Program-made: the position numbers and the translations under genes
In this document: positions 26,143-29,677 of the stretch, piece after piece
Numbering within the stretch: the stretch's first letter is position 1
How the letters are laid out: the number at the start of each line of letters is the position of its first letter
Notes under the pieces: model-generated
Seen by the model: the letters and a program-made list of their open reading frames with translations, nothing else
The model's database searches: none
What the model was told of the DNA's origin: nothing
Source: Xylanimonas protaetiae
Lineage (GTDB): Bacteria; Actinomycetota; Actinomycetes; Actinomycetales; Cellulomonadaceae
Reading direction: 5' to 3'
Length of the DNA stretch: 64,000 bases
Assembly: GCF_004135385.1 (NCBI RefSeq)
Contig: NZ_CP035493.1
Span: forward strand, 930,001-994,000

Positions 26143-27024
26143 ATGGCCGCGCCGGAGCGAGTTGTCGACATCCACGTGGTCGCCGACTCGACCGGCGACA
26201 CGGGGGCGCGCGTGGCGCGCGCGGTCGGCGCGCAGTACCCGGACCTCGAGGTCAACGTGGTGCGGCACCCGCGCATCCACGACGTCGACGGCGTCGACCG
26301 GGCCCTGGAGACGCTCCGCGAGGACCACGCCGACGCCGTCGTCTTCGTGACGCTCGTCGACGTCGGCCTCAACGCCCGCGTCGCCGCCACGTGCGCCGAG
26401 CTGGGCGTGCCGTGCGCCGACCTCATGGCGCCCGCGCTCGACGCCGTCATCGCCCGTACGGGGCTGCACCCCGCGCGCGTCGTCCAGCCCGTCGGGCTCG
26501 CGGCCGACTACTTCGAGCGCATCCACGCCATGGAGTTCGCCGTCGCGAACGACGACGGGAACCTCACCGACTCGCTGAGCGAGGCCGACGTGGTGCTGGT
26601 GGGCGCGAGCCGCACGGGCAAGACGCCGCTGTCGATGTACCTGGGCTACCTCGGGTACCGCACGGCCAACGTGCCTCTCGTGACCGGTGTGGCCCCGCCG
26701 GACGAGCTCTTCCAGGCTGCACCCTGGAAGATCGTGGGCCTCACGATCGACCCCGAGCGACTGCTCGCCATCCGCCGTCGGCGGGTCTCCCTCATGGGAG
26801 CCCAGGCGCAGGACGGCGGACGGCTCGGGGGCTATGCGGACCTGGCCCGCATCTTCGACGAGCTCGACGACGTCGCCCGCATCCAGCGGCGCCTCGGGTG
26901 CCCCGTCCTCGACACCACCAGCCTCGCGCTGGAGGAGGCCGCAGGCCGGGTCATCGAGCTCGTCTCCGCACGCCGTCGGGCGCACCTCGCCGCGCCCACC
27001 CCCATGGAAGGACCGGTCGGATGA
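26143..27024 (+). CDS. ppsR: PPDK regulatory protein (bifunctional kinase/phosphorylase, DUF299)
   Basis: 293 residues. The family P-loop is GASRTGKTPLSMYLG; the N-terminus VDIHVVADSTGDTGARVA is also typical. It uses ADP to phosphorylate, and phosphate to dephosphorylate, a threonine next to the catalytic histidine of pyruvate phosphate dikinase, switching it off and on. TAGCCT ends 7 nt before the ATG. Its stop overlaps the ppdK start (ATGA), which ties regulator and target together. Confidence 0.94.
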   Translation: MAAPERVVDIHVVADSTGDTGARVARAVGAQYPDLEVNVVRHPRIHDVDGVDRALETLREDHADAVVFVTLVDVGLNARVAATCAELGVPCADLMAPALDAVIARTGLHPARVVQPVGLAADYFERIHAMEFAVANDDGNLTDSLSEADVVLVGASRTGKTPLSMYLGYLGYRTANVPLVTGVAPPDELFQAAPWKIVGLTIDPERLLAIRRRRVSLMGAQAQDGGRLGGYADLARIFDELDDVARIQRRLGCPVLDTTSLALEEAAGRVIELVSARRRAHLAAPTPMEGPVG

Positions 27025-28193
27025 CGACTGACGTGACGTACGTGTACGACTTCTCGGAGGGCAACGCCGAGATGAGGCCGCTGCTGGGCGGCAAGGGGGC
27101 CGGCCTCGCCGAGATGACCCGCATCGGCGTCCCGGTGCCGGACGGGTTCACCGTCACCACGCAGGCGTGCGTCGAGGCCATGAAGGCCGGCGGCACGTGG
27201 CCCGCCGACCTGTGGGCCCAGGTCGAGGCGCGGCTCGACGCCCTGGAGGCCCGCACGGGCCGCCGGCTCGGGGCGGCCGAGCGGCCGCTGCTCGTCTCGG
27301 TCCGGTCCGGCTCGGTGTTCTCGATGCCCGGCATGATGGACACCATCCTCAACCTGGGGATCAGCGACGAGGCCGCCGCCGCGCTCGCCGCCGAGACCGG
27401 CAACGCGCGCTTCGCGTGGGACTCCTACCGCCGGTTCGTCCAGATGTACGGCGAGGTGGTCGAGGGCGTGCCCGCGCACGCGTTCGAGGACGAGCTCACC
27501 GCCCTCAAGGGCCGCCGCGGCGTCGCCAACGACACCGACCTGGGCGTCGAGGACCTCCAGGAGCTCGTCGCGACCTTCCGCCGCGTCGCGCGCACGCACG
27601 GCGCCGACCTGCCGACCGACCCGCGCGAGCAGCTCCGCCGCTCCGTGAACGCCGTCTTCGCGTCGTGGGACAACCCGCGCGCCCGCGTCTACCGCGGCCT
27701 CAACGACATCTCTGACGACCTCGGCACCGCGGTCAACATCCAGCAGATGGTGTTCGGTAACCGCGGCGATCACTCCGCCACGGGCGTCGCGTTCACGCGC
27801 AACCCGTCCACGGGCGCCAAGGAGCTCTACGGCGAGTTCCTGGTCAATGCGCAGGGCGAGGACGTCGTCGCCGGCATCCGCACGCCGCGCCCCCTCGCGG
27901 AGCTCGAGGCCGTGCTGCCCGAGGCGTACTCCGAGTTCCTCGCCACGATGACCCTCCTCGAGGACCACTACGGCGACATGCAGGACATCGAGTTCACCAT
28001 CGAGGAGGGCAAGCTCTACCTGCTCCAGACCCGCAACGGGAAGCGCACGGCCGCCGCCGCGCTCAAGGTCGCCCGCGACCTCGTCGAGGCGGGCGTCATC
28101 GACCGCACGACGGCGCTGCGGCGCATCGAGCCCGCACAGCTCGACCAGCTCCTGCACCCGGGCCTCTCCGCCGCCCACGGCGAGACCCCGTGA
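27021..28193 (+). CDS. ppdK: Pyruvate phosphate dikinase, N-terminal (nucleotide-binding) part
   Basis: 390 residues covering the ATP-grasp half of PPDK (LLGGKGAGLAEMTRIGVPVP, SVRSGSVFSMPGMMDTILNL, DIEFTIEEGKLYLLQTRNGK). A normal PPDK is one polypeptide of about 880 residues. Here it stops after LDQLLHPG, just where the swivelling phosphohistidine domain should begin, and the remaining domains follow in a frame that starts with an overlapping GTG. The 2657 bp from 27021 to 29677 lack exactly one base of a continuous 885-residue frame, and a run of four C's lies at the junction. Confidence 0.88.
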   Translation: MTTDVTYVYDFSEGNAEMRPLLGGKGAGLAEMTRIGVPVPDGFTVTTQACVEAMKAGGTWPADLWAQVEARLDALEARTGRRLGAAERPLLVSVRSGSVFSMPGMMDTILNLGISDEAAAALAAETGNARFAWDSYRRFVQMYGEVVEGVPAHAFEDELTALKGRRGVANDTDLGVEDLQELVATFRRVARTHGADLPTDPREQLRRSVNAVFASWDNPRARVYRGLNDISDDLGTAVNIQQMVFGNRGDHSATGVAFTRNPSTGAKELYGEFLVNAQGEDVVAGIRTPRPLAELEAVLPEAYSEFLATMTLLEDHYGDMQDIEFTIEEGKLYLLQTRNGKRTAAAALKVARDLVEAGVIDRTTALRRIEPAQLDQLLHPGLSAAHGETP

Positions 28194-29677
28194 CCCGCGG
28201 GCTCAACGCGTCCCCGGGCGCCGCCGTCGGGCAGATCGTGTTCGACGCCGACACCGCCGCCGAGCGCGGCAAGGCCGGCGACGCCGTCGTCCTGGTCCGC
28301 TGGGAGACGACGCCCGACGACATCCACGGCCTCGTCGTCGCGCAGGGCGTGCTCACCGCGCACGGCGGCATGACGTCGCACGCGGCCGTCGTCGCACGCG
28401 GCATGGGCAAGCCCTGCGTTGCGGGCGCGGGCGACCTCGTCATCGACGCGGCGGCCCGCACGCTGACGATCGGCGGCCACGTGCTCACCGAGGACGACAC
28501 CATCACGCTCGACGGGTCCACCGGCGACGTGTACGTCGGCGCGCTCGACCTGGTGCCGCCGCAGATCACCGACGACTTCCGCGAGGTGCTCGGCTGGGCC
28601 GACGACGTCCGCCGCCTCGGCGTGCGCGCCAACGCCGACACCGGGCCCGACGCCGTCAAGGCCCGCGAGCTGGGCGCCGAGGGCATCGGCCTGTGCCGCA
28701 CCGAGCACATGTTCATGGCCGTCGACCGGCTCCCCGCGGTGCGGCGCATGATCCTCGCGACCGACGCCGCCGCCCGCCAGGCCGCGCTCGACGAGCTGCT
28801 GCCCATGCAGCAGGCCGACTTCGAGGAGATCTTCGAGGCCATGACCGGGCTGCCGGTCACCATCCGGCTCATCGACCCGCCGCTGCACGAGTTCCTGCCG
28901 GACCTCGTGGAGCAGTCGCTGCTGGTGCAGCGCCTGGAGGCGGCCGCTGCCCCGTCGTCGTCCGACGACGACGGGGCGCTGGCCGCGGCGCGCAGCCTGC
29001 TCGCGCACGTCAAGCGGCTGCACGAGCAGAACCCCATGCTCGGCACGCGCGGCGTGCGGCTCTCGCTGCTCTACCCGGAGATCTGCGTCATGCAGACGCG
29101 GGCCATCGTCCGGGCGGCGCTCGCCGTGCTGGGGCGCGGGTTCGACCCGCACGTCGAGATCATGGTGCCGCTCGTCGGGTTCGCCGAGGAGCTGCGCCGC
29201 ATGCGCGAGGTCATCGTCGAGACCGCCGACAAGGAGGTCGCCGCCGCGGACCGCGCGCTCGACTACACGGTCGGCACGATGATCGAGCTGCCGCGCGCGG
29301 CGCTCACCGCCGACAAGATCGCCGAGCACGCCGACTTCTTCTCGTTCGGCACCAACGACCTCACGCAGACGGCCGTCGGCATCTCGCGCGACGACGCCGA
29401 GGGCTCGTTCCTCGCCGCGTACCTGGAGGCGGGCATCGTCCCGGCCAACCCGTTCGCGTCGATCGACGCCGAGGGCGTCGCGGAGCTGGTGCGGATCGGC
29501 GTCGACAAGGGCCGCTCGCTGAAGCCGGGCCTCAAGACGGGCGTGTGCGGCGAGCACGGCGGCGACCCGGCAAGCATCGCGATCCTGGACAAGATCGGCC
29601 TGGACTACGTGAGCTGCAGCCCGTACCGCGTCCCGCTGGCCCGCCTGGCGGCGGCCCGCACGACGCTGGACGGCTGA
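28190..29677 (+). CDS. ppdK: Pyruvate phosphate dikinase, C-terminal (phosphohistidine and PEP-binding) part
   Basis: 495 residues from GTG overlapping the preceding stop (GTGA). GGMTSHAAVVARGMGKPCV holds the catalytic His64 and the regulatory Thr62. The PEP/pyruvate barrel follows, with LCRTEHMF, SFGTNDLTQTAVG and the catalytic Cys in TGVCGEHGGD. If both parts are made they could assemble as a two-subunit enzyme interconverting pyruvate, ATP and phosphate with PEP, AMP and pyrophosphate. If the frame is restored it is a single normal PPDK. Confidence 0.88.
   Translation: MTRGLNASPGAAVGQIVFDADTAAERGKAGDAVVLVRWETTPDDIHGLVVAQGVLTAHGGMTSHAAVVARGMGKPCVAGAGDLVIDAAARTLTIGGHVLTEDDTITLDGSTGDVYVGALDLVPPQITDDFREVLGWADDVRRLGVRANADTGPDAVKARELGAEGIGLCRTEHMFMAVDRLPAVRRMILATDAAARQAALDELLPMQQADFEEIFEAMTGLPVTIRLIDPPLHEFLPDLVEQSLLVQRLEAAAAPSSSDDDGALAAARSLLAHVKRLHEQNPMLGTRGVRLSLLYPEICVMQTRAIVRAALAVLGRGFDPHVEIMVPLVGFAEELRRMREVIVETADKEVAAADRALDYTVGTMIELPRAALTADKIAEHADFFSFGTNDLTQTAVGISRDDAEGSFLAAYLEAGIVPANPFASIDAEGVAELVRIGVDKGRSLKPGLKTGVCGEHGGDPASIAILDKIGLDYVSCSPYRVPLARLAAARTTLDG

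Follow-up and report, generated by a model that had tools for sequence, protein, structure and literature searches.

Two overlapping PPDK frames in the Xylanimonas protaetiae assembly and their probable origin in a one-base sequence error

Three kinds of described system bear on the locus analysed here. The first is PPDK itself, represented by the model TIGR01828 and the solved chains PDB 1dik, 1kbl and 2x0s; in the Flaveria enzyme the nucleotide domain comprises residues 1-340 and the central domain residues 380-515, according to the available part of PMC5371819. The second is a group of two-component dikinases: in the text available from PMC12167813, HpeHI, CreHI and PpsAB are described as two-component, HpeHI having its ATP-grasp domain on one protein and its swivel domain on another and being without the PEP-binding fold of PPDK. 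The third is the gene-fragmenting indel of long-read assemblies, whose errors are given in the accessible portion of PMC12007338 as mainly short indels at homopolymers, deletions being most frequent where a run of four to five preceded in the assembly profiled there, and A/T runs being more error-prone than G/C runs.

Structure of the X. protaetiae PPDK locus

A preliminary description of the window (the whole stretch of X. protaetiae DNA analysed, 64,000 nucleotides) had reported PPDK in two overlapping frames with a GTGA overlap and had placed ppsR just upstream. Both observations were borne out, and the features concerned are as follows.

26143-27024, plus strand: ppsR, PPDK/PEP synthase regulator, 293 aa (NF003742, 282 bits against a cut-off of 225).
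27021-28193, plus strand: first PPDK frame, ATP-grasp (nucleotide-binding) half, 390 aa, ATG to TGA (PF01326, TIGR01828, PDB PPDK chains).
28186-28193, plus strand: junction, CCCC followed by GTGA, with one base fewer than in relatives (sequence and alignment).
28190-29677, plus strand: second PPDK frame, phosphohistidine (swivel) and PEP-binding half, 495 aa (PF00391, PF02896, TIGR01828, PDB chains).

The first frame matched positions 3-382 of TIGR01828 (564.5 bits) and PPDK_N (PF01326), and the second matched positions 388-864 of 865 (688.5 bits) and contained the mobile (PF00391) and PEP-binding (PF02896) domains. Because the two cover positions 3-864 of the 865 between them, in order, they were taken together as one full PPDK; the ATP-grasp, phosphohistidine and PEP-binding domains follow one another across the frames in that order, and the frames match the solved chains. 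The gene differs from known PPDK in lying in two frames and in being one base short, and neither half alone reaches the TIGR01828 cut-off of 843.45, the halves having been scored separately.

At the junction, the GTG start of the second frame overlaps the TGA of the first (28191-28193) within GTGA at 28190-28193, and the four C's (28186-28189) stand directly before it. Relative to the first, the second frame is shifted by minus 1 and is open from the GTG at 28190 to 29677. The entire span, 27021-29677, is 2657 bp (885 codons plus 2 bases), in agreement with the earlier statement that the gene is one base short of an 885-codon frame at a run of four C's. Upstream, the TGA of ppsR overlaps the PPDK ATG as ATGA; ppsR lies directly 5' of PPDK on the same strand in 35 of 72 loci, these being the loci, of a set of 80 (see below), with at least 900 bases upstream.

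Just 3' of PPDK, the window contains a very strong hairpin (29694-29773; the segment 29675-29775 folds at -84.8 kcal/mol, z -11.2). It looks like a member of a small repeat family, since a 33-base piece of it recurs with at most two mismatches at four other sites in the genome. Adjoining the hairpin on its 3' side (29763-29850 of the window) is a tandem array whose 14-base unit is present in 6.3 copies with 98% matches.

The arrangement had been proposed as a possible genuine two-subunit PPDK with coupled translation. In such an enzyme ribosomes would stop at the TGA and restart at the overlapping GTG, the swivel domain of the second protein then taking its phosphate in trans from the ATP-grasp protein. 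A GTGA overlap is of a kind met in coupled genes. Initiation signals differ between the two starts when judged by eye: GGAAGGA precedes the start at 27021, and a clear Shine-Dalgarno sequence was not seen before the GTG at 28190. The break had also been placed exactly at a domain boundary. It does fall between domains, mapping between residues 383 and 395 of the Clostridium symbiosum chain 1dik, but measured against the Flaveria limits in the available part of PMC5371819 it lies close to where the central domain begins, approximately 40-55 residues past the nucleotide domain. Dikinases divided into two components, with the ATP-grasp and swivel parts in different proteins, are known (PMC12167813, available text), and the locus would resemble HpeHI, CreHI and PpsAB in having these parts on two proteins, if both are made here. 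In those systems, as far as that text describes them, the substrate-binding domain of the second component is a different one and the swivel comes last; in X. protaetiae the second frame has the swivel first, then the PEP-binding domain of PPDK, and the arrangement is not conserved.

The junction region in relatives

Continuity of the gene was followed at three depths. Within the genus, the second PPDK half was used as query against 11 genomes including X. protaetiae, of which 10 gave a match; the X. protaetiae open frame was 638 aa and the next shortest, in a metagenome-assembled genome (MAG; G009), was 735 aa. An in-frame stop limits the G009 frame 247 codons ahead of the junction region; the junction itself is crossed in frame. 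Within the family (genomes at least 90% complete, matches with E of 1e-100 or better), 126 of 198 genomes matched, X. protaetiae among them, and 72 did not; an open frame below 880 aa was found in only two of the 126, X. protaetiae (638 aa) and G034 (421 aa), although many of these matches span only about query residues 131-493 and show long frames and not the junction itself. The G034 match begins 182 bases from a contig end.

Junctions were read one by one at the best 80 of 365 loci, five of which were genus genomes already covered, and at four further genus genomes. These 84 distinct loci take in all nine other genus genomes carrying PPDK; the locus list may omit records of the X. protaetiae genome itself or of very near ones, and a second strain of the species is not among them. 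One frame ran through the junction in every one of the 84, and the matched stretch was free of stops in all except one, a MAG contig (L011, identical to L021). Codons at this point in the relatives were commonly those for Val, Ile, Leu or Ala, followed by Thr or Ala. In alignment with G002, G010 and G001, X. protaetiae had a one-base gap at the C run. The relatives examined are intact here and the deficit, observed directly, is of a single base at the break, as an assembly error would leave it.

A conserved split, as a two-component enzyme would have, was rejected, being present in none of the relatives examined: neither the 84 loci nor the family open frames contained one, and close relatives with one continuous gene are what the preliminary description had itself named as contradicting two subunits. 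GTGA was also found inside continuous PPDK genes at two loci, L006 (from G001) and L041, within GTG ACG and GTG ACC. Because it is present within the continuous gene of G001, the junction GTGA is, on this comparison, ordinary coding sequence exposed by the one-base deficit. A two-subunit PPDK is favoured here only by the shape of the overlap and the position of the break between domains, and with the split absent from all examined relatives, GTGA occurring within an intact gene, no clear Shine-Dalgarno sequence at the GTG as against GGAAGGA at the true start, and similar breaks in genes where such a meaning is unlikely (see below), we regard it as very improbable.

Full-length PPDK could in principle also be produced from the sequence as it stands, by minus-1 ribosomal frameshifting or by transcriptional slippage at the C run, and the second frame is indeed the minus-1 frame, with the C run just before the stop. 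The usual slippery heptamer has the form X XXY YYZ, from which the in-frame G ACC CCG at the junction departs, and four C's are short for transcriptional slippage. With a heptamer of unusual form, a short run, and an arrangement seen in none of the examined relatives, recoding deserves almost no weight. Two candidate precedents for a natural frameshift in PPDK were rejected: the Brucella frameshift in the available text of PMC5896264 lies in pckA, and the frameshifts named in the corresponding part of PMC7650540 lie in other genes.

Differences from G010, G001 and G002 at codon positions 1, 2 and 3 were approximately 0.07-0.09, 0.06-0.07 and 0.16-0.25, and were similar in both halves of the gene. 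By this measure PPDK has been under normal constraint until recently at least, and, both halves being similarly constrained, any break in it is therefore recent.

Frame breaks elsewhere in the assembly

A 424 kb portion of the X. protaetiae assembly, window included, was compared with 419 kb of G002, 424 kb of G010 and 264 kb of G001; orthologous frames were comparable over 219,845 bases of X. protaetiae. Initial surveys for frame breaks included apparent shadow frames, and a stricter rule was used for the final count. Eight clusters of breaks were found in X. protaetiae, of which four were clean, each exactly one base short (families other than PPDK named from the G002 orthologues).

PPDK, in the window: the break described above.
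G000:C1:844928: RNB domain, RNase II-type.
G000:C1:1014348: hemC.
G000:C1:1099781: mgtE.

The RNase II-type gene and mgtE, both outside the window, are one base short in comparison with G002 and with G010. Under the strict rule the RNase II-type, hemC and mgtE breaks each had two supporting relatives, and PPDK was supported by G002 alone; in three earlier surveys the PPDK break was visible against G002, G010 and G001, and in two of them against G003 as well. We think that the strict rule undercounts PPDK since the G010 and G001 frames extend upstream, which makes their two matches overlap too far. The other four clusters had one supporting relative each, with net changes of +80, +1, +10 and -25, and were left out of the count; the +1 cluster may reflect an indel on the G002 side. 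Within the window, no frame break other than that in PPDK was seen against G010, G002 or G003.

By the same rule, breaks with at least two supporting relatives numbered none among six clusters in G002, none among nine in G010, and six among 11 in G001. The six in G001 (e.g. C1:2729140, C1:2681244) fall within 264 kb and are each net minus 1 against at least one relative, and the G001 assembly may have deletion errors too. Counts of zero in G002 and G010 and six in G001 are as expected if the assemblies differ in quality. With four conserved genes of X. protaetiae cleanly one base short, and breaks in the relatives varying from 0 to 6, residual deletion errors in the X. protaetiae assembly are therefore suggested. 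A run of at least four C's or G's adjoins three of the four clean X. protaetiae breaks, mgtE being the exception, and four of eight inspected breaks in G001; any run of at least four was found within 8 bases of 11.2% of 20,000 random positions. The numbers are small.

The hemC gene (G000:C1:1014348, outside the window; L172 and L173) was the only copy found, and its two pieces meet at a break beside a G run. A hemC match was obtained in 11 of 14 control genomes, and three gave none. An actinomycete that keeps this otherwise conserved gene probably needs it, and the hemC break is therefore probably absent from the living cell. The PPDK break likely has the same cause.

Origin and meaning of the PPDK break

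Taken together, these observations make it most likely, on the genome comparisons presented here, that the PPDK split is a sequence error in the assembly. The earlier suggestion of a dropped C is supported by the continuous gene in relatives, the one-base gap by the C run and the three further genes with a one-base deficit. The PPDK gene of the cell would then be ordinary and unbroken, lying downstream of ppsR; the consensus would be missing one base beside the short C run, the two frames being an assembly artefact. The shift would turn the TGA within GTG-ACC, the Val and Thr codons of the intact gene, into an in-frame stop, and would thereby imitate a GTGA overlap. We infer that the cell has this base and that only the consensus lacks it. 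The pattern resembles the indels of PMC12007338, as characterised in its available part, in that single-base deletions, most of them next to runs, affect several conserved genes within one assembly, and differs in that A/T runs are the worse there; the runs here are of C or G, and the cause is read from the pattern.

Several observations count against a sequence error. The events are few (four), and no run of at least four adjoins the mgtE break; A/T runs were more error-prone than G/C runs in PMC12007338; the assembly is a single contig, 99.88% complete, in which PPDK is the sole break in the window; hemC is not universal, given the three control genomes without a match; and real mutations favour runs too. 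An alternative is a real and very recent one-base deletion, leaving PPDK a young pseudogene: it takes the sequence as it stands, the break is unique to X. protaetiae among the genomes examined, and short runs are also mutation-prone. A cell growing on sugars would in that case live without pyruvate-to-PEP conversion by PPDK. A whole-genome search of the assembly found no other place with PPDK_N (PF01326), and the idea that a second PPDK or PEP synthase makes the split copy spare was rejected; nothing was thus found to cover the loss. Three more conserved genes one base short, hemC included, are many for one genome, and the normal constraint in both halves also speaks against inactivation, though it shows only that a break would be recent. 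We consider a young pseudogene unlikely.

If the split were nevertheless true, it would offer a natural case of a swivelling dikinase of central metabolism divided into parts, produced by a single deletion. Under the preferred reading of a sequence error, other split or missing genes of the X. protaetiae assembly need to be checked against reads before biological use, because the 424 kb surveyed contained four clean breaks of one base each. The locus further serves as a caution that, in a GC-rich assembly, the lack of one base can look like a tidy two-subunit enzyme with coupled translation and a split almost at a domain boundary.
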